Under the pieces are notes generated by a model, which worked only from the letters and a program-made list of their open reading frames with translations, did not search any database and was not told the DNA's origin. The position numbers and the translations under genes are program-made. A stretch of DNA of 64,000 nucleotides from Cryptosporangium arvum DSM 44712 (lineage in GTDB: Bacteria; Actinomycetota; Actinomycetes; Mycobacteriales; Cryptosporangiaceae): contig NZ_KK073874.1 in assembly GCF_000585375.1 (NCBI RefSeq), positions 3,844,001 to 3,908,000 on the forward strand. The letters are read 5' to 3'. Position 1 is the first letter of the stretch; every line of letters begins with the position of its first letter. Positions 17,285 through 34,112 of this stretch are shown in pieces.

Positions 17285-18007
17285 ATGGGACATCCGGTCA
17301 CCGTCCATCACGAGCGGCGGCTCTACCCGGTCACGCACGGGGAAGAGCTGATCTTCGGGAGGGGGCGGAACTGCCAGATCCGGCTCGCCCATGAACCCGA
17401 AGACACCCGGGTTTCCCGGACCGCCGGGTCGTTCAGCCTGCTCCCGGACTCGGTACTGATCCGCAATCTCTCCACCAGCAGGGAGCTGTACCTGGTCGCC
17501 GCGCAGACGCCGGATCGTGTGCTCGAGCCGCACAGCGCGACGACCTCGCTACCCCACCTGACGTTCGATCTGGTGGTCGTCGGCAACCACGGCCGAACCT
17601 ATCCGCTCCGGGTCGACGCGTCACGACTCACCGCTACGCCGGCGGTCCGGCGTCCGAGCCGCGCTCAGGCGGGGGAGAAGTTGACCGCTCCGGGAGCCGA
17701 CGACCTCAACCTGACCCCGGCCAGACGACGACTACTGGCCGCGCTCTGCCGGCCGTTGCTCGACGGGAAGGACGATCCGGCCACGTATCGCGAGATCGCC
17801 GTCCGGCTCGGTCTGAACGCCGGGCACGTCCGGAACAGCCTCCGGGAGGTGCGCGAAATGCTCGCGGGCGCCGGTGTACCGGGGATGGTCGTCGCGGCCG
17901 CCGATGCCTCCCCGGATCTGCGCATCGCGCTGGCCCGCTGGGCGATCCGCAACGGAGTGGCCGCCGACTCCGAACTCGTCGTCCGCGAGGATCGCCATGG
18001 CGTCTGA
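17285..18007 (+). CDS. FHA domain protein with C-terminal winged helix
   Basis: A 240-residue protein. Residues 10-95 form a forkhead-associated domain (IFGRGRNCQIRL, TRVSR, VLIRNLS) that would bind phosphothreonine. After a proline/arginine linker, residues 140-215 look like a winged helix (LTPARRRLLAALCRPLL, TYREIAVRLGLNAGHVRNSLREVREML). ATG at 17285 lies eight bases after GGGAGG. It overlaps the following kinase gene by 11 bases and is divergent from kinase A, so it is the likely phospho-dependent effector of one or both kinases, perhaps a DNA-binding one. Confidence 0.85.
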   Translation: MGHPVTVHHERRLYPVTHGEELIFGRGRNCQIRLAHEPEDTRVSRTAGSFSLLPDSVLIRNLSTSRELYLVAAQTPDRVLEPHSATTSLPHLTFDLVVVGNHGRTYPLRVDASRLTATPAVRRPSRAQAGEKLTAPGADDLNLTPARRRLLAALCRPLLDGKDDPATYREIAVRLGLNAGHVRNSLREVREMLAGAGVPGMVVAAADASPDLRIALARWAIRNGVAADSELVVREDRHGV

Positions 18008-19556
18008 CTACGAGGATCCGCCGACCCGGACGGGCTCCGGCGAGCCGGCCTTTCCGAAGGCCGTTCGGCCGGAGCCGCCGATCGCCGGCGAGACGGTCTG
18101 GTTCGTCGGCCCACCGGAGGAGCCGGACCGCTTCGAGGTCAGCGGCCCACCGACAGCCGGTTCCGAGGGCGTGACCTGGCGGGCGCGGTACACCGGCAGG
18201 CTCAACAGCCCGCTGGCGATCGCCGTGAAGCAGCTGAACCGGCCACCCGGGGCAGGTCTCGACTGGCCGTCGCCGGCTGAGTTCAGCCGATGGCAGGACC
18301 ATCGCATCCTGCTGCAGAGCATGCTGGCGCCGCATCTGGTCTCGGTGATCGACGTGTTCCTCGGCAGTCCGCCGCACCCGGCCGACGCCGAGGAGTCTCC
18401 CGGACTCATCCCGTACGTGGTGATGCCGTGGATCGAGGGTCCGTCGCTGGCCCGGTACGTGGAGGGCTCCCGGGCCACCGTGCGCTCGCTGTCCGAGCGG
18501 CTCGCGCTGGTCCGCGATCTGGCCGAGGCGCTGGGCTCCCTCCACGCGATCACCCGGGCCGGGGGCAACGTTCTGACCCACCGCGACATCAAGCCCGGCA
18601 ACTGCATCGTCACCCCCGACCGGGGACTGGTGCTCGTCGACCTGGGCACACTGCGGCTCACCGAGGACGGCTTCGACGACCTCGGGATGCACACCCCGGA
18701 GTACGCGGCACCGGAGGTGCTCGCCGACCCCCGAGCATCCCGCGGGAAGCCCTCCGACGTGTATTCGCTCGGCGCCGTGGCGTATTTCGCGCTCGTCGGC
18801 GCCGATCCGCCGGCCGCCGACCGTGGCGACGTGACCGGGGTCCACCTGAGGTCGGTTGCCGCCTCGGCGCGGATCCCGGATCCGGAGGCGTTCGCGGACC
18901 ACCTGCTCACCGCGATGCACTCCGATCCGGCCGTGCGGCCGACCGACCCGGTGAACTGGGCGAACGAACTCGTGCGGCGAGGCACGCCGTCCGGCGCGCC
19001 GGCCACGCGGATGCTTCCGGCAGCACTGGTCGCCGTCCTGGTGGCCGTGCTGTGCGCGGTGGCATTGGTGTGGGGGCAGTCGATCGGCGGCCGATCGAGC
19101 ACGCCGGCCGTCGGTACACCGCCCACCGTCGGGTTCACCCCGCCGATCCCGACCCGCTACGGGGTACAGATCGTTGAGCCCGCGCCGGCCCAGCGCGTTC
19201 AGCGCTGCGCGGTCTTCCGTGGCCGATCGGCGCTGCCCGCAGGCAAGACGATGGTGCTGGCGATGCGCAACCGGACAAACGGCGAACCGGTCCGCTACCT
19301 CGTCGAGGTCGACGGCTGGGATCGTCCGTCGCGCCTGGCCACCTGGCGGGGGAAACAGTTCTTCGGTACCGCTGACAGCTCGGTCGGGCAGGAATACACC
19401 GTCGAGGTGCTGGTCGTCGATCTCGGTGCGGTCACCAGGAGCATGCGCGCAGCGCACGCGGCGGGTGAACTCTGGACCCTCGAAACGCTCCCGGCGACCT
19501 GGGAGGTCGCTGCCGCCGTCACGGTCCGCCGTATCGCCGGGCCCGGGAACTGCTGA
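17997..19556 (+). CDS. Transmembrane Ser/Thr protein kinase (kinase B)
   Basis: A 519-residue paralogue of kinase A with a 40-residue acidic N-terminal extension. Lys 78 (IAVKQL), complete catalytic loop HRDIKPGN (195-202), DLG (215-217), APE (238-240), one membrane helix at about 339-360, and a similar outside domain of about 140 residues (VQIVEPAPAQRVQRC through AAVTVRRIAGPGNC). ATG at 17997 overlaps the FHA gene by 11 bases, so the pair is translationally coupled. It is probably the main partner of the FHA protein and senses an extracellular signal. Confidence 0.92.
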   Translation: MASDYEDPPTRTGSGEPAFPKAVRPEPPIAGETVWFVGPPEEPDRFEVSGPPTAGSEGVTWRARYTGRLNSPLAIAVKQLNRPPGAGLDWPSPAEFSRWQDHRILLQSMLAPHLVSVIDVFLGSPPHPADAEESPGLIPYVVMPWIEGPSLARYVEGSRATVRSLSERLALVRDLAEALGSLHAITRAGGNVLTHRDIKPGNCIVTPDRGLVLVDLGTLRLTEDGFDDLGMHTPEYAAPEVLADPRASRGKPSDVYSLGAVAYFALVGADPPAADRGDVTGVHLRSVAASARIPDPEAFADHLLTAMHSDPAVRPTDPVNWANELVRRGTPSGAPATRMLPAALVAVLVAVLCAVALVWGQSIGGRSSTPAVGTPPTVGFTPPIPTRYGVQIVEPAPAQRVQRCAVFRGRSALPAGKTMVLAMRNRTNGEPVRYLVEVDGWDRPSRLATWRGKQFFGTADSSVGQEYTVEVLVVDLGAVTRSMRAAHAAGELWTLETLPATWEVAAAVTVRRIAGPGNC

Positions 19557-24694: not shown

Positions 24695-26266
24695 ATGCCG
24701 TTGCTCGGTTCGAGCCCCGCGTCGCGGTTCGGTACCGCGCTCGTCACCGCCGCCCTGCTGCTGACCGGGTGCACCGCAACGTCGCCGGCGGAGCGGAAAA
24801 CCACGCCGATCACCTGGAGCCCGTGCGGAACCGCACTCGAATGCGGCACGGTTCCGGTGCCGCTCGAGTACACCGAGTCCGACGACAAGCAGATCGCGCT
24901 GACCGTGATGCGCCACCCGGCCACCGACCCGGCGCAGCGCATCGGCACCCTGTTCTTCAATCCCGGCGGCCCGGGATACCCCGCCACCGAGCTGATGAAG
25001 ACGCTGGACTCGCCCACCGGGATGTTCTCGCCCGACGTGCTGGCCCGCTTCGACATCATCGGCGTCGACCCCCGCGGCGTCGGGCGCTCCTCCGGCGTCC
25101 GCTGCCTCACCGACGACCAGCGGGCCGACGCCGTGGCCGCCGACTTCGACCCCGCGATCCCCGGCGGCAAACCACTGCCCCGACTGCTCGCCGACGCCAC
25201 CGCGTTCACCCGGGGTTGCGCCGACCACCAGAGCCGAGCGTTCCTCGCCAGCCTCTCCACCGACAACGTCGCCCGCGATCTGGACCAGGTCCGTGCCGCG
25301 ATCGGCGAGGAGCAGATCAGCTTCTACGGAACCTCGTACGGCACCGTGGTCGGTCGGATGTACGCCACGTTGTTCCCGGATCGCGTGCGCCAGGTGGTGC
25401 TCGACGCCCCCGTCGACACCGGACGCTGGTTCGGTGATCCGCTCGCGTTCCTCAACGAGGTGGCCGTAGCCAGCGAGCGGACCCTCGACGCCTGGTTGGC
25501 GACCTGCCGCGCCGAGGGCGTGCGGGTGTGCCCGTTCGGCGACGGGAACCCCGGAGCCGCGCTCGACACGCTCCTCACCCGGCTGGAGGCGAAGCCGCTG
25601 CCGGTGAAACCCGTGGCGGGCCTGACTCCGGGCGGCACGCTCGACGGCGCCAGGGCACTCGAGGCCGTCCGGGCCGCGGCGGGCGCCGCGGTCACCTGGC
25701 CCGTTCTCACCGCGGCGCTGCTCGGCGCGCAGCGGGGCGACGGGGCGCTGCTGCACTTCCTGTGGACGGCGGTCACCCTCTCGCCCTTCCCGGTACCGAC
25801 CGCCCTGAACGAGGTGCACACCGCGGTGCGCTGCGCCGACTGGAACACCCCGGCCGACGTCGCCGCGCACACCGCCGCCGCCCGCGACGTCGTCGAGCAG
25901 GCGAAGCGAGTGGGCACCCGGGCCGCCTACAGCGCACTGAACTGCGCCCGCTGGCCGGCGCCGAACACCGACCGCTTCACCGCGCCGCTCACCGGCGCCG
26001 GCGCACCGCCCACGCTGGTGATCGGTGGCCGCCTCGACCCGGCGACGCCGTACCACTGGGCCGTGGCCACGACCGCGACCCTCGAGTCGGCGGTGCTGCT
26101 CACGCGCGAGGGCGTCGGCCACGGCTCCTACCGGACGAGCAACTCGCCGTGCGTCGACAGCGCGGTCGACGCCGCGCTGATCAGCCGGGCGCTGCCCGCG
26201 GACGGGACCGTCTGCACCCCGGACGCGCCCGCCACCACGAAGCCGCTCGCCACCCCGCCCCGCTGA
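24695..26266 (+). CDS. Tap/SlpD-type secreted peptidase lipoprotein
   Basis: A 523-residue alpha/beta hydrolase of the Streptomyces tripeptidyl aminopeptidase family. Lipobox LLTGC with acylated Cys 26, oxyanion loop NPGGPG (89-94), nucleophile FYGTSYGT (Ser 214), Asp in GGRLDPATPY and His in GVGHGSY; the C-terminal TAP-like domain is present. It would release N-terminal peptides on the outer membrane face. ATG at 24695 follows AAGGAGAGG. Monocistronic; the leader at 24640-24680 contains inverted repeats (GACGACGG with CCGTCGTC). Confidence 0.9.
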   Translation: MPLLGSSPASRFGTALVTAALLLTGCTATSPAERKTTPITWSPCGTALECGTVPVPLEYTESDDKQIALTVMRHPATDPAQRIGTLFFNPGGPGYPATELMKTLDSPTGMFSPDVLARFDIIGVDPRGVGRSSGVRCLTDDQRADAVAADFDPAIPGGKPLPRLLADATAFTRGCADHQSRAFLASLSTDNVARDLDQVRAAIGEEQISFYGTSYGTVVGRMYATLFPDRVRQVVLDAPVDTGRWFGDPLAFLNEVAVASERTLDAWLATCRAEGVRVCPFGDGNPGAALDTLLTRLEAKPLPVKPVAGLTPGGTLDGARALEAVRAAAGAAVTWPVLTAALLGAQRGDGALLHFLWTAVTLSPFPVPTALNEVHTAVRCADWNTPADVAAHTAAARDVVEQAKRVGTRAAYSALNCARWPAPNTDRFTAPLTGAGAPPTLVIGGRLDPATPYHWAVATTATLESAVLLTREGVGHGSYRTSNSPCVDSAVDAALISRALPADGTVCTPDAPATTKPLATPPR

Positions 26267-26269
26267 CCC

Positions 26270-26406
26270 GTGACGGCTCGGGGGCCGGTGATGTCGCCGT
26301 CGGTGGTGAACGCGTAGCCGAAGTCGAGGTGACAGTGCGCTGGGGGAGCGACGGTACCGAGGTCGATACCGGCTTCCTCGGTCAGCTCACTCAACGCGGC
26401 ATCCAT
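26270..26406 (-). pseudogene. NUDIX hydrolase fragment
   Basis: About 45 residues (ALSELTEEAGIDLGTV, then PPAHCHLDFGYAFTTDGD) match the middle of a NUDIX domain (RExxEExG-like helix and the following strand). The rest of the domain is absent on both sides. It follows the truncated glycolipid-binding-like gene on the same strand and may have been joined to it by deletion. Confidence 0.55.
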
Positions 26407-26737
26407 GGGGGTCGAGTCGGCCGGCGATGTCCGTGTCGCTGATCGTCATCGGGCCCGGGTAGTCGAGCACCAGTCCCTCCGCGTCGACAGGTAGGTCGGC
26501 CGTGAGGCCCCCGTCGAGGCTCGTGAACCGGTAGACGTCCGCCCCGTCCCGGTCCAACCGCGTGTAGCGCTGCGGCTCCGGCCAGGGCTGCAGATCCATC
26601 CCATCGACATAGGCGACGGTGATGTCGGCGGCAGCGCCGCGCACCAGTCCGAGCCGGCGGACCGGCAACGTGTTCGTGAACGGCGTGTCGGCGATGTCGA
26701 CGTATTTGCAGCCGTCGAGGTTCCCAGAAGACGTCAT
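26387..26737 (-). pseudogene. 5'-truncated putative glycolipid-binding (PF06475-like) gene
   Basis: The 116 residues readable from an ATG at 26737 carry the C-terminal half of the family: GCKYVDIADTPFTNTLPVRRL, QRYTRL, and GGLTADLPVDAEGLVLDYPG. Family members are normally about 180-190 residues, and no N-terminal half is found upstream. The tail after LDYPG is unrelated. Translation is possible but a complete fold is not. Confidence 0.65.
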
Positions 26738-26937
26738 CCACCGGAGCCTCCGATCTCGCCGACGTGTCAGAGCGACAGCGCCGGACACCATACGTGCTTC
26801 CTCCCGCCGCCGGAGCCGAACGGTGGTGGCAGGCGACCATCAGTGCGATGGCCGAGCACGTGTGGGGTCGCGGAGAATGCCGAGGACGACGGCGGCCGGC
26901 GCCAACGTCGAGCCGGGCTCTGGAGGACGCCGTGGTG

Positions 26938-27573: not shown

Positions 27574-30500
27574 TCAGCCGCCCAGTAGCCGATTCCGCGC
27601 GGCGGCCGCGATCGCGGTCACGACGTCGGCGGGAAGCGCCTGCGGATCCTCCACAACGGTTCGCCACGAGCCGTTGCGCAGGGCCAGGCAGACGATCGGC
27701 AGCAGGCCCTCGTGATCGGAGCGTTCTCCGGCCGCCGCGACCAGTGCCCGCGACGACTGGGGCTGCGGCATCAGCAGCGCCAGCTGGCGGCACCGCTGGT
27801 AGTCACCGATGATCGCCATCGTCTTGACCAGCTCGACGAGCACCTCGGTCTGCCTGGCCACTCGAACCGCCTTCGCGCGCTCGGTCAGCTCACGGGCCGA
27901 GACGCGGTCTCCGGTCCGCGCGACGGTCCGGGCCAGCGCGGCCAGCGCGCGGGCTTTGAGCTTCGAGTCCTCGATCCGGTCGGCCCAGCGCGCGGCCTCC
28001 TCGCCGAAGCGGCGGGTCTCCGAGGGACGCTCGCCGGCCGCCTCGACCAGCGTCGTGAAGGCGACGCACCGGCTCCTGGGGTCGGTCAGCGTGGCAGCCC
28101 ACTGCTCGGCCGCGGCCAGGCCGTCCTCGGCCACCAGCCGCCGGGCCTCCGCGACGGCCGCGAGCGCCGGATTCTCGGCAGCCGTGCCGGTGCTGCTCCG
28201 CTCGCCGGGGACGGCCGTCCGGGTCGGCGCCCGGCCGCCGGCGGCGAAGTCGTCGTCGTCGGCCAGCGCCTCGGCGAGCGTCAGCTGCAGCCTCGTCCGT
28301 TCGGCACCGTCGCGCATGGCCCAGATCACGGCGTGGGCCAGGTCGTGGTCACCGATCGTCAGGGCGATCCGGGCCAGGCCGGTCTGGACGCCCATCGACC
28401 ACTCGGTGCCGATGCTGGGCGGGATCAGTGCGGCGGCCCGCTCGGCCAGCGCCTGGGCGCGTTTCTCGTCACCGGCCCCGGCCGCGGCGCAGGCCAGGTC
28501 GCGGAGGGCGGCTGAACGTTCGCCCGGATCGAGCAGGAGATCGGCTTCCGCCTCCGTCGTCGTGCGATCCGTCCGCCGGGGGGCATTCGGGGCGGTCGCG
28601 GCGGCCAGCCGTGCCCGCGCCGCGGCTCGCTGCCCGGGGTGCGAGATCGTCCCGATGACGCCCTCGGCCCGACGCGTCAGGCTCCACGCCTGCTGCCGGC
28701 GTCCGGCCGCCTTCGCCACCGCGACCAGCGTCCCCAGCGCCTCGACCCGATCGGCCAGGTCGTCGACCCGGTCGGCCGCCCGCCGCGCCTTGTCCAGCAC
28801 TGTGCCGCAGTGCGCGTCCTGGCCGGCGCTGGCCGCCGCCCCGGCGACGGCGGCCAGCGCGTCCGCCTGCTGCCGGGCCGGCCGGACCGCGAGCGCATGC
28901 TGTTCGGCCAGGTCCAGGCAGCCCGCGTCGGCCAGCGCGACCGCCAGGTCCGCCACGCACTGACCAGGCCGGTAGGGCGCGGCGACCGCACGCGCGGCTC
29001 GCCAGGCGACGTCCTGGTCACCGACGTCCTGTGCCGTCTTGGCGACCTCGAGGGCTGCGACCAGCCATCGCTCCCGGTCACCGATCAGGTCCAGACGCCG
29101 CTGGGCCTCGGCCAGCAGCAACCCGGCCGGGCCGTCGGGCTCCTGGTAGGCGCGCGCGGCCGCGCAGGCGTCGAGGACCGCTTCGGCCTCGTCGTCGTGG
29201 CGGACCACCTCCTCGGCCCGCCCGGCCAGCTCACGAGCGACGTCCATCAGGCCTCTGTCGAGCGCGGCGCCGGCCACCAGGACGAGCGTCGCCGACCGTC
29301 GCTCGCGGCTCCCGATCGACGCGCAACAGCGGACGGCGCGCTCGGCCAGCGTCCGCATCCGCGTCTCGTCGGTCTCGTCGGCCAGGCGCAGCATCGCCGC
29401 GTATCCGCTGGCCCGGCCCTCCGCGGTCGGAATCTCGGCAACGACGGCGTCCGCCGCACCGAGGTCACCGTTGGCCAGGTGCACCTGAGCCAGCGACACC
29501 AGCGCCTCGACGCGCCGCTCGGGCGGCCGGATCGAGCCGGCCAGCTCGCGGGCGAGCGTGGCATCCCGCCGGGCCAGCAGCGCGACGACCTCGGTGGTCG
29601 CTCTCACCCTGGCCTTCGCGTAGCCGGGAGAGCTGCCGTAGAGCCGTAGTACGGAGATCGCCCCGGCGGGCTGTTGGGACTCCGCAACCAGCTTCGAGAC
29701 CCTGGGCAGCGCGTTGATCCGCACCCTCGGGGTACTGATCCGGCCGAGGAGCTTGCAGGCCCCCACCGCGTCGCCCTGTCGGGCCAGCGCGCTGGCCCGC
29801 CGGAACCGGATGTTGTCCTGCGAGGTGGCGTCGTCGGGCGGGATCTGCCGCTCGGACCGCCCGGCCCGGCGCATGAGTTTGTCCATCGTGCTCCGGTCGC
29901 CCTTGTCCCTGGCGATCTCCGCGATGTCCAGCCAGGCCGCAGTCTCCCAGTAGGGGTGACCTATCCGGTGCGCGACCTGCTCGGCGCGGTGCAGCTCACC
30001 GGACTCGGCCAGCGCCGCCGCCAGTGCCGCGAGCACCCTCCCTCGCTGCGGGCCGTCCTCGAGCGACACGCCCACCGACTCCGCGCCGGAGTACACGCCC
30101 AGATCGATCAGGGCCAGCCCCAGCGCGAGGAGCACGCGGCCTTGTTCGCGTTGGTCGGTGACGGTCCGCGCCAGCGTCACGGCGCGCGCGACCTGGCCGG
30201 CCTGGGCCACCGCCCGCGCCAGCGCGGTGATCGCCTGGACGTGCTTGGACTCCACGAGCTGCGCCGCCCGGGCCGCCGCCTCCTCGATGACCGGCTCGGC
30301 CAGCGTGGCCCGGTCGGCCTCGGCCAGCGACTTGACGACCATCGTCAGCGCGTCGGCACATTGGTAGGGGTCGGTGATCCGCCCGGCCATCCGGAGGACC
30401 TCGGCGACCAGCCGCGCGGGGTCCACCGCCGACCCGATCGCCCGCGCCACCGCCTGGATCCACTGGTACTCATTCAGTGGCGTCGCACTCGGCTCCGGGG

Positions 30501-32343
30501 ACGGGTCGGCGCGACTCAACGCCCGCTGGGCCTCCTTGCTCCGGTCGAGGTCGGTGATCGACCTGAACAGCGCAGCGGCGCGGGGCCGGTCACCCAGCGC
30601 CAGCCACAGCGCGGGCAGCGTCACGGGCAGGTACCTGTTGCGGTGCAGCAACCGATCGCGGGCGGCCGAGACCCCGGCCAGCACGGTCAGGTCGGCGACG
30701 GCGGGCCGGCCCGTGGCGCAGATCAGGTCGTGCGCCTCCCTGGTCTCGGCGAGTGCCGCGGCGTCGCTGGAGGTCTCCGCGTAGAGGCGGTCGTGGCGGA
30801 AGGCGTCGGTGGCCAGCCGCGTCAGTGCGTCCTGCTCGCCCGCCGCGCGCAGCATGCCGGGGTAGTCGAACAGCAGATAGGGAGGCGTCGTCCCGGCCGG
30901 CCATCTCCGCGCCGCGTAGGCATCCGCCCAGGCGATGATCTCGCGGCGGTGGCCCGGGAGACGGTCGGCGAGCCTGGCCTCGGCTGTCGCCTGCAATGCG
31001 GCATGGGCGAACGTCAGGGTCGACCCGCCGCCGTCCGCGGCACCTCCCTTTTCCGCGGCCACGCGCACGATGGTGCGGCCGAAAAAACTTCCGAGCATCC
31101 GCTCGACGTCCCGGAGCGTGAGCCCGGCCAGTTCGGCCAGGTCCTCGGGTCGGAGGCCACCCCCCGCCGCCGTGATCAATCCGAGCAGTCCGCCGTGCAC
31201 CTGTTCGGTGTCGAGCAGCACATCCAGTTCCTGGCCGGCGCGTCGCTCGTCGTCGGCGGCGTACCCCAGCTGGGCCAGCCGGCGGGGCGTGCACGCGCGC
31301 AGCGGATGGTCGTCGCGGACGTCGGCGGGCAGGCCCGGCTCGGGACGGCTGGTCACCAGGATCCGCACGCCGTCCGGGAGCCGGATCGGCAGCAACGTCG
31401 CAATGCTCGGAACCCCGGCCGACCGGCGATCCTCGTCGAGGCCGTCCACCAGCACCAGCAACCGGCGGCCCGACCGGCGGACCCGCTCGGCCGCCTGTTC
31501 CAGCAGCATCAGCCAGCTCTCGCCGAACGAGCCGATCGCCGCATCCGCCTGACCGGCGGTGACCAGATCCGACAGCTGCGCCCCGATCGACTCCACGAAC
31601 TCCGCGCCGGTCGCCTCGGCCAGCCGTCTCGAGTCGACGAAGAACGACACGACCTCGAGGTCGTCCGGCGGCTTGAGGGCGAACTCCGACATCAGCGCCG
31701 ACTTCCCGGCCCAGGCCTCGCCGACCCACCACGCGTAGGGGGCCTCGCCACGGCAGAAGGCGCTCAGTTCCGCCAGTTCGGACTCGCGGCCGAGCAACCC
31801 GCCTGCCGGTGGGTACTGCCGGATCCGGACCCGCTGCCGGTCCAGATGATCGCGCCGCCGGGCGGGCGCGGCCGCCGCGACCACCGGCCCGCCCGCAACG
31901 GCGGTCAGTAATCGATCGCGCCCGACCGGCGTCCTGCCCACATCGAACAGATCGCTGTAGACGACCTGAGGTAACACACCCTGGAGCGCGCAGTCCTCGA
32001 TGCGAACCGGGATCAGCCGCCGAGTGTCGCCGACCGGATCACGGGCCCACGCGGCCGTCCATTCCGCCCGGCACACCGCCGAGTCCAGGTAGGCCGCCGA
32101 GACGACGGCCACCGTGTGATCGGCCTCCACCGCCTCGTCGACCTTCGACGGCCACTGCGTACCCGGCGTCATCGACCAGGGTTGAAAGATCACGTCGTAG
32201 CCCGCGTCGCGGAGCGCCAGCGCGATCCATTCCGCCCATGAGGCGTCGTCAGCAGTGAACGACACGAATACCTTCAGTGTCCCGCTGCTCGCTCGTTGTA
32301 TTCCCCCCACGCGTGCAGCATCCCACGAGCCGTCAGGCGTCAC
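27574..32343 (-). CDS. Giant TIR-STAND protein with long helical-repeat region
   Basis: A 1589-residue cytoplasmic protein. Residues 20-135 form a TIR domain (LKVFVSFTADDASWAEWIA, then AVVSAAYLDS) with CRAEW placing a Glu (94) at the NADase catalytic position. Residues 180-480 form a STAND NTPase: Walker A GEAWAGKSAL (208-217), Walker B LLVLVDGLDED (295-305), sensor VTSRP (330-334). From about 620 to the end are Ala/Arg-rich helical hairpins resembling TPR or related solenoids. Start uncertain: GTG at 32343, or GTG at 32310 (11 residues shorter). Such fusions act in anti-phage or developmental signalling; the role here is inferred. Flanked by IS110 and broken genes. Confidence 0.88.
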   Translation of the reverse strand: MTPDGSWDAARVGGIQRASSGTLKVFVSFTADDASWAEWIALALRDAGYDVIFQPWSMTPGTQWPSKVDEAVEADHTVAVVSAAYLDSAVCRAEWTAAWARDPVGDTRRLIPVRIEDCALQGVLPQVVYSDLFDVGRTPVGRDRLLTAVAGGPVVAAAAPARRRDHLDRQRVRIRQYPPAGGLLGRESELAELSAFCRGEAPYAWWVGEAWAGKSALMSEFALKPPDDLEVVSFFVDSRRLAEATGAEFVESIGAQLSDLVTAGQADAAIGSFGESWLMLLEQAAERVRRSGRRLLVLVDGLDEDRRSAGVPSIATLLPIRLPDGVRILVTSRPEPGLPADVRDDHPLRACTPRRLAQLGYAADDERRAGQELDVLLDTEQVHGGLLGLITAAGGGLRPEDLAELAGLTLRDVERMLGSFFGRTIVRVAAEKGGAADGGGSTLTFAHAALQATAEARLADRLPGHRREIIAWADAYAARRWPAGTTPPYLLFDYPGMLRAAGEQDALTRLATDAFRHDRLYAETSSDAAALAETREAHDLICATGRPAVADLTVLAGVSAARDRLLHRNRYLPVTLPALWLALGDRPRAAALFRSITDLDRSKEAQRALSRADPSPEPSATPLNEYQWIQAVARAIGSAVDPARLVAEVLRMAGRITDPYQCADALTMVVKSLAEADRATLAEPVIEEAAARAAQLVESKHVQAITALARAVAQAGQVARAVTLARTVTDQREQGRVLLALGLALIDLGVYSGAESVGVSLEDGPQRGRVLAALAAALAESGELHRAEQVAHRIGHPYWETAAWLDIAEIARDKGDRSTMDKLMRRAGRSERQIPPDDATSQDNIRFRRASALARQGDAVGACKLLGRISTPRVRINALPRVSKLVAESQQPAGAISVLRLYGSSPGYAKARVRATTEVVALLARRDATLARELAGSIRPPERRVEALVSLAQVHLANGDLGAADAVVAEIPTAEGRASGYAAMLRLADETDETRMRTLAERAVRCCASIGSRERRSATLVLVAGAALDRGLMDVARELAGRAEEVVRHDDEAEAVLDACAAARAYQEPDGPAGLLLAEAQRRLDLIGDRERWLVAALEVAKTAQDVGDQDVAWRAARAVAAPYRPGQCVADLAVALADAGCLDLAEQHALAVRPARQQADALAAVAGAAASAGQDAHCGTVLDKARRAADRVDDLADRVEALGTLVAVAKAAGRRQQAWSLTRRAEGVIGTISHPGQRAAARARLAAATAPNAPRRTDRTTTEAEADLLLDPGERSAALRDLACAAAGAGDEKRAQALAERAAALIPPSIGTEWSMGVQTGLARIALTIGDHDLAHAVIWAMRDGAERTRLQLTLAEALADDDDFAAGGRAPTRTAVPGERSSTGTAAENPALAAVAEARRLVAEDGLAAAEQWAATLTDPRSRCVAFTTLVEAAGERPSETRRFGEEAARWADRIEDSKLKARALAALARTVARTGDRVSARELTERAKAVRVARQTEVLVELVKTMAIIGDYQRCRQLALLMPQPQSSRALVAAAGERSDHEGLLPIVCLALRNGSWRTVVEDPQALPADVVTAIAAAARNRLLGG

Positions 32344-32613
32344 TCAAACGCGAGACCGTCAGGTCTTCTTCTTTGCGCTCCGACATCAGAGACTTGCCGA
32401 TCACGACTCGACAGTGGTTCCGACCGCCCTCAGCCAGCAAGCTCCTCCCGACCGGGGACCTGGCTGCGCATCGGGCGGCGCCCACCGCGGCGCGCACGAG
32501 GGGCAGCCGGCGTCGGCAGCCACCGGTTCCGGTGACCAACCGACGGGGGCTCGACAGCGGACTCGGAAAGGACGGGCGGCAGGCCGAACGTCCTCAACTG
32601 GCTCCCCTCTGTG

Positions 32614-33110
32614 TCAACCCGCGGCAGCGGCTGCCGTTCTAGGGTGGTGATCGGCGGGTCCGGGAAGTGACTTTTCCGAAGTGCCGGCGTCGGGGTGTGA
32701 GCCGGTCGCGATGGAGTCAAGAGTCGTCCCCGGTTGTCCTCCCGGGCCGGTCCGGGAGCCCGTGGCCGCTCTCATGGTGTCGTTGAGCATGGTGCGATAG
32801 ACGAACGTCGGACAGGCGGCGTTTGAGCGCGCGCATCGCTTCCATCGAGGTTTTGCCTTCGCTCTTGCGGCGGTCGTAGTAAGCCCGTCCGATGGTCGCG
32901 TTGCGTAACTGGACCACGGCCATGATGTGGAGCACGCGGTTGATCTGCCGGTTGCCGCCGCGGGAGAGCCGGTGCCGGACATGGGCGAGCCCTTCGATCG
33001 AGGTATGGGGGCAGGAGAATCGCACTGTTCGGTGCAGAGCGACCCGGGCTCGCACGATCAGAGTCCGTCCGTCCCAACTGCCGCCCGGGCATGGTTGTGG
33101 CAGCTGACCG
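32614..33110 (-). pseudogene. IS110-type transposase remnant, frameshifted
   Basis: Only the C-terminal (transposase_20 and tail) part is present: AHVRHRLSRGGNRQINRVLH, AVVQLRNATIGRAYYDRRK and SMEAMRALKRRLSD. One extra base near 32804 then shifts the frame, and the family tail continues as VYRTMLND and GTTLDSIATGSHPDAG. The N-terminal RuvC-like catalytic DEDD domain is missing. No element ends seen. Confidence 0.75.
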
Positions 33111-33296
33111 CGAAGCATGATCGCCTCTGCTGAAATCGCCCCGATCTCGTCCGTTCGATGCCGTTGCGGTAGCCCACCTCGGCCGCCACGGCGAATCGTT
33201 CCGCCTGTTTCCGAGTCCGGCCTGCAGAACTGCGCTGGTGTCTAGTCCCTTGCCTGACCCGCCCTCACACAATCGGGCTCGTTCTAGCCATCCACA

Positions 33297-33451
33297 GCGC
33301 CCCATGCCGCGGTGGCCACGCATCTGGGCACCCGACAGGACGCCGCCCTGCGGACGATCGAGCAGGTCGGCCGCAGCGCATTGGACGACGTTCGGTCGGT
33401 GCTCACCGAGTACCGGGGCAGCCGGACGGCGGATTCGCCGTCCGTGCAGTG
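33297..33451 (+). pseudogene. Histidine kinase (HisKA_3) fragment
   Basis: About 51 residues (AAVATHLGTRQDAALRTIEQ, then VGRSALDDVRSVLTEYRG) match the dimerisation helices just after the phospho-acceptor of NarL-type sensor kinases. It ends in a normal TGA and is followed 14 bases later by a response-regulator pseudogene, so this is the last piece of a decayed two-component pair. Confidence 0.6.
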
Positions 33452-33465
33452 ATTCCGCTGGGCCG

Positions 33466-34112
33466 ATGATCGGTCGACTGACTCGCGTCGTGCTCGCGGA
33501 CGACGAAGCCTCGTACCGCGGCGCCGTCCGGGAACTCATCGACGCGACACCTGACCTCACGGTTGTCGGCGTGGCCGAAACCGGTCGCGAGGCGATCGCC
33601 GTCGCTGGAGCCTCGCGGCCCGACGTGGTTCTGATGGACGTGCGGATGCCGGACGGCGACGGAATAGCCGCCACCGCACGCCTCACGGCCGGAATGGCCC
33701 CGCTACGGATACTCGTGCTGACCACCTTCGATGTGGACGACCATGTCTTCCGCGCGCTCCGCGCAGGGGCGAGCGGATTCCTGCTCAGAGACGTCCCGCC
33801 CCCGCGATAGCTCGACGCGATTCGAACGATTGCCGCGGGCGAGTCGCTGCTCGCTCCCCGGGTGACTCGGCGGCTGATCGCTGCCTGGATGGACCGGACG
33901 CCGCCGCGCCGCGTGCTCGATGGTGTGACGCCCAGGGAGCGCGACGTCCTCGCGCTGACCACTCGAGGGTTGTCGAACACGCAGATCGAGGCGGCGTCGC
34001 GGGTGAGCCGGGGAACTCTCAAACCCATATCGGGAACTTGCTCGCCAAGTTGGCGGCACGTGATCGGGCGCAGCTGGTGATCGCCGGCTACGAGGCCGGA
34101 CTTGATACCTGA
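33466..34112 (+). pseudogene. NarL/LuxR-type response regulator with stop and frameshift
   Basis: The receiver domain (residues 1-113, phospho-Asp in PDVVLMDVRMPDGDG) is intact from the ATG at 33466. A TAG at 33808 then interrupts the frame. The same frame continues as LDAIRTIAAGESLLAPRVT and VTPRERDVLALTTRGLSNTQ. A further extra base near 34023 breaks the LuxR helix-turn-helix, whose end (NLLAKLAARDRAQLVIAGYE) is in another frame. Closely resembles the intact regulator at 49329. The two lesions argue against readthrough. Confidence 0.85.

Follow-up and report, generated by a model that had tools for sequence, protein, structure and literature searches.

A stand-alone TIR-STAND-TPR protein in an actinomycete genome and the N-terminal modules carried by its relatives

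One gene in the analyzed window (i.e., the whole 64,000-nucleotide stretch, G000:C1:3844001-3908000, within a 9.196-Mb single-contig genome) encodes a real, intact, stand-alone TIR-STAND-TPR protein (Table 1). On balance, we favor the reading that it acts as a single-protein, NLR-like, NAD-consuming abortive infection switch, which would most likely be triggered by a phage protein. The kind of protein is already known: bacterial TIR-NB-TPR proteins have been reported, and their NB relatives are numerous in actinobacteria (PMC9806590); FxSxx systems with TIR-AP-ATPase-TPR genes, as well as EAD adaptors, have been described (PMC7159879), as have STAND sensors with TPR arms (PMC10907252, PMC12931631). 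The TIR-STAND-TPR kind is thus known in actinobacteria, and only the details of this member and of its module history are new. What is new is modularity, in that the shared core is joined in different relatives to a TIR, a trypsin-like protease, EAD1, an Xre-type HTH, or no recognized N-terminal domain. The protein is also a clear-cut actinomycete example of an animal- and plant-like immune architecture encoded by a single gene.

Table 1. Window coordinates of the TIR-STAND-TPR gene, its parts, and the flanking debris.
Feature	Position	Strand	Basis
TIR-STAND-TPR protein, 1589 aa	27574..32343	minus	Open frame; coding-type codon bias; PADLOC STAND_TPR, 6.9e-80
TIR domain, residues 25-135	31939..32271	minus	Pfam TIR_2, 6e-28; 43-56% identity to TIRs of relatives; PDB TIRs matched by profile, 1.1e-7
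Glu94, putative NADase glutamate	32062..32064	minus	Conserved in 5/5 aligned TIR rows; pairs with Glu of 3h16
STAND NTPase and following helical part, residues 181-597	30553..31803	minus	PADLOC STAND_TPR match; Foldseek, best MalT and Apaf-1; VIA
Walker A GEAWAGKS, residues 208-215	31699..31722	minus	G213 and K214 invariant in 15 sequences
Walker B LLVLVDGLDED, residues 295-305	31429..31461	minus	V299-D305 invariant in 15 sequences
TPR-class alpha solenoid, putative sensor, residues 600-1589	27577..30546	minus	All-helical hairpin model; profile matches; TPR_12/TPR_19 of relatives
IS110-family transposase 3' remnant (flanking debris, outside the system)	32598..32987	minus	85% nucleotide identity to copies in G003; NF033542, 2.5e-5, profile positions 261-331 only
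Frameshifted NarL-type response regulator (flanking debris)	33238..34080	plus	Receiver, 4.1e-20; DNA-binding half in another frame from 33811

The 1589-residue frame described in an earlier note on this DNA is intact. It lies on the minus strand, which that note left unstated, begins with GTG, and has no internal stop. Frame length by itself is no proof of a gene here, because a 745-aa open frame (29674-31911, plus strand) overlaps it on the opposite strand. This antisense frame is skipped by a codon bias-based gene caller and is probably a by-product of high GC. A chance origin of the 1589-aa frame was ruled out by codon bias and homology; its GC fractions at the three codon positions (0.77/0.55/0.89) match the pattern of genuine genes in this GC-rich (71%) window. 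No clear ribosome-binding site precedes the GTG at 32343, which leaves the exact start codon uncertain.

The N-terminal domain was recognized as a TIR by Pfam, and the glutamate to which the earlier note had drawn attention was found at residue 94. When a profile built from the five TIR rows was compared with solved structures in the PDB, solved TIRs were matched, and the E94 column was aligned with a glutamate of the bacterial TIR 3h16. This position is established as that of the NADase glutamate of TIR domains; TIR domains can also serve as scaffolds. Residues 1-640 were modeled with AlphaFold (pLDDT, 74), and the TIR part had only moderate pLDDT. The VIA match list obtained with this model was filled by the NTPase domain, and the TIR fold was hardly probed by structural comparison.

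The STAND NTPase was also borne out, with an intact Walker A motif from residue 208 that includes K214 and an intact Walker B motif near residue 300, as had been claimed. Residues 181-597 were aligned with positions 99-486 of the PADLOC STAND_TPR profile. In Pfam, NPHP3_N was matched just over the cutoff (1.4e-5, residues 201-333). With 20.3 bits against a NACHT cutoff of 26.7, the window protein falls outside bNACHT and Pfam NACHT; one relative, L031, barely clears that cutoff (26.9 bits). Structure searches with the model of residues 1-640 supported a STAND fold. MalT and Apaf-1 were the top Foldseek matches, with low TM-scores (0.32 or less by query length). With VIA, Avs3 in its complex with phage terminase reached a Z value of 14.9, but at 24 Å rmsd over 375 residues; Apaf-1 reached 12.0 (7.0 Å over 351 residues) and MalT 12.1. 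The plant TIR-NLR RPP1 spanned the TIR and NTPase jointly (model residues 22-362; Z, 10.5; 13 Å), and further matches included the STAND-TPR protein 6mfv, plant resistosomes, and many ORC/Cdc6 AAA+ proteins. At Z values of 10-15, these matches back a STAND/AAA+ fold for the modeled domain and do not speak to function.

The C-terminal arm had been described as roughly 950 residues of helical repeats belonging to no nameable family. The length was close to this figure (about 990 residues, all helical in the AlphaFold model), but the repeats do have a family. The model of residues 580-1589 (pLDDT, 76) is an extended series of helical hairpins, and a solenoid profile of eleven sequences matched TPR/PPR chains in the PDB, namely, 3zpj (1.1e-15), a consensus TPR (2.9e-10), and MalT (7.6e-5). 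Additionally, Pfam TPR_12 and TPR_19 were found in relatives L034 and L055. Profile, model, and relatives together place the arm in the TPR class and rule out an unknown repeat family. A 33-residue periodicity was detectable in the solenoid (z, 4.1). Foldseek searches with the solenoid yielded generic alpha-solenoid matches only, with very high rmsd, and were uninformative on the ligand. Identity to relatives was 19-28% in the solenoid versus 39-44% in the NTPase core, a difference that, at the sequence level, would fit a conserved switch joined to a varying sensor.

A TIR with a conserved glutamate, an NTPase with intact Walker A and B motifs, and a C-terminal TPR solenoid define the TIR-STAND/NB-TPR architecture, and all were found in the window protein. 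Among described proteins, bacterial TIR-NB-TPR proteins (the plant TNP architecture) have the three parts in the same order (PMC9806590). However, their nucleotide-binding domain is of the NB-ARC family, whereas the window NTPase is NPHP3_N/NACHT-like in Pfam, and the two are likened by architecture. PADLOC STAND_TPR (PDLC01173) shares the NTPase, the helical region, and the C-terminal TPRs. Its description has an N-terminal Xre-HTH, which is found in relative L055 and not in the window protein. Because a TIR replaces this Xre-HTH, we class the window protein as a TIR-bearing NLR-like protein with a STAND_TPR core and not as the HTH form. The same description mentions association with a cas1-less type I-E system; no CRISPR-associated gene was present among the window neighbors scanned, and a search on the STAND_TPR/cas1-less type I-E link found nothing in the literature covered.

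Avs proteins resemble the window protein in build, with an N-terminal effector, a central STAND NTPase, and a C-terminal repeat sensor, and in the fold match to Avs3. This is a likeness of build and not of membership: Avs1-5 membership was ruled out by the Avs models (sole match, Avs1b at 0.021, 10 bits). The effectors of Avs1-4 are nucleases and that of Avs5 is a Sir2 domain, in contrast to the TIR of the window protein; Avs5 proteins, with TPR/PPR sensors, deplete NAD+ upon sensing a phage protein (PMC12931631). FxsT, the TIR-AP-ATPase-TPR protein of FxSxx-COOH systems, likewise combines a TIR, an ATPase, and TPRs in a single actinobacterial protein (PMC7159879). However, no radical-SAM, FxSxx peptide, or FxsA/B/C gene occurred among the window neighbors scanned, and an FxSxx-COOH system was ruled out, with the TIR reaching only 20.4 bits against FxsC_Nterm (cutoff, 130) and no FxsT match.

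Relatives were sought with residues 1-610 across 200 genomes of the order. The core was found at 1e-60 or better in at least 9 of the 200, a lower bound because scoring was limited to a few candidates in each genome. Within the genus, its presence is patchy: of three congeners, G001 has two distant copies, and G002 and G003 have no copy at 1e-40. The lack of a close relative in two of the three congeners supports the reading in the earlier note. Plasmid-borne relatives in Streptomyces and Rhodococcus match from the NTPase core onward only, and several are annotated as serine or trypsin-like proteases. A phage-borne origin was rejected, as none of 50,697 phage records matched, and scans of viral and genome contigs with six short motifs, which reach close relatives only, returned no relative. 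Neighbors of the relatives (glycosyl hydrolases, transporters, dehydrogenases, and sigma factors) differ by locus save in one closely related pair. No partner gene common to these loci was seen, which agrees with the single-gene system claimed earlier. The genome of the window carries a second TIR-STAND-TPR gene (L021:7579-11178, G000:C1:4600351-4602159), which adjoins a GH1 glycosidase and has a core 40% identical to that of the window gene.

The N termini of these relatives differ. TIRs were recognized by sequence in the window protein, L021, L022, L023, L032, and L058; L033 also bears one, its frame lacking the first part of the domain. Trypsin_2 stands at the N terminus of L025 and L028, EAD1 at that of L056 (L056:9700-10312) and L057 (L057:8300-8677), and HTH_26 (Xre type) at that of L055. 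The remaining relatives have N termini that are short or without a recognized domain. Such a core with TIR, trypsin, EAD1, or HTH modules would fit an effector slot. The core of L056 (EAD1) is 76-77% identical to those of the TIR-bearing L032 and L058; these near relatives show one switch with different effectors, and effector exchange can thereby be tested. A separate search for EAD1 gave no match in the genome of the window and 24 and 26 matches in the two genomes of L056 and L057.

In a core tree of 19 rows, the window protein was grouped with the two trypsin-bearing rows (97/98), away from the other TIR rows. Forcing all seven TIR rows into one clade cost 93 log-likelihood units, and a single TIR clade was rejected (p-AU, 1.3e-66), with the caveat that the window row has a long branch (1.52) and that the AU test is subject to the same long-branch attraction as the model. 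The EAD1 rows nest within the TIR rows, and the other six TIR rows as one clade were rejected too (p-AU, 2.8e-5). The window TIR is 56% identical to the TIR of L023, a protein of a congener, although the two cores share 41%; the L023 TIR is less similar to any other TIR (42-54%). The simplest reading, though not the sole one, is that a TIR recombined with a different core. Because it sits on this long branch, the window core may differ in function.

The switch that we favor builds on the three-part anatomy, the conserved TIR and NTPase residues, the STAND fold, the more rapid divergence of the TPR-class solenoid compared with the core, and the N-terminal module exchange among relatives. At rest, the protein would be kept closed by its solenoid. 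We infer that the TPR arm (residues ~600-1589) would bind a ligand, which is most likely a protein that the phage produces in the course of infection. Upon binding, the STAND NTPase would swap its nucleotide and the protein would oligomerize. The clustered TIRs would then cleave NAD+ via Glu94, and cell growth would stop, or the cell would die, ahead of phage release. Instead of merely consuming NAD+, the TIR could make a cyclic ADP-ribose-type signal that activates a separate effector, as in Thoeris; bacterial TIRs often produce cADPR isomers (PMC10022894). This version appears quite unlikely, as no effector gene lies beside the window gene or was seen to be common to the loci of relatives, although a distant effector is possible.

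Experimentally characterized bacterial STAND sensors of this layout detect phage proteins (PMC10907252). This argues against allorecognition, in which a protein from a non-kin strain or from a conjugating element would be sensed by the TPR arm, with the TIR killing or arresting the mixed or invaded hyphal compartment. The host, a large-genome actinomycete, and the patchy core within the genus would suit such a role; multicellular bacteria are enriched in related conflict systems, and STAND sensors of a similar type have been suggested to act in non-self recognition (PMC10907252, PMC7159879). Nothing specific to the window gene points there, and we hold allorecognition to be unlikely. MalT being the best Foldseek match, the STAND and TPR parts might alternatively sense a metabolite or a host protein in a signal transduction regulator, with the TIR as a scaffold and not an enzyme, and an HTH does occupy the same N-terminal position in L055 and in the PADLOC STAND_TPR description. 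We find a MalT-like role decidedly unlikely: the window protein has a TIR instead of an HTH, its Glu94 is conserved, other relatives bear trypsin-like or EAD1 modules, which are typical of conflict systems (PMC7159879), and no conserved operon partner was seen at their loci.

A broader proposal, which we put forward tentatively as possible rather than probable, is that the actinobacterial STAND-TPR core may be a cassette platform for N-terminal effectors (TIR, trypsin-like protease, EAD1 adaptor, and HTH), that the window protein may have gained a TIR through a recombination event of its own, independent of the main TIR group, and that its TPR arm may recognize a phage protein that is not a known trigger of any defense.

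The gene had also been placed in an island of mobile debris. The debris is real, with the IS110 remnant 255 bp upstream of the gene and the frameshifted response regulator beyond it, followed by a SigE-family sigma factor; the case for a defense island is weak. No second convincing defense gene was found among the neighbors scanned, the others being metabolic or regulatory. DNA comparison with three congeners showed the left flank to ~24.1 kb to be rearranged in G003 and the remainder scattered, and no empty insertion site could be shown. An insertion cannot be delimited, because the region lacks synteny to the congeners over a long stretch. This context fits a stand-alone gene in variable DNA and not a demonstrated defense island. 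By eye, 33288-33452 resembles part of a histidine kinase. Downstream lie, in order, a 259-aa gene without a family, a glycolipid-binding family gene (26387-26791), and a TAP-like alpha/beta hydrolase gene (24695-26266). The glycolipid-binding gene covers positions 68-176 of a 180-position profile, lacks the first third, and is probably truncated at its N terminus. The hydrolase matches the PADLOC model C3a206 (5.5e-86) and is probably an ordinary secreted peptidase. Farther off, a protein-kinase-like gene (17874-19556) matches the defense kinases PD-T4-6 and mad6, for which generic kinase likeness is the likelier explanation.
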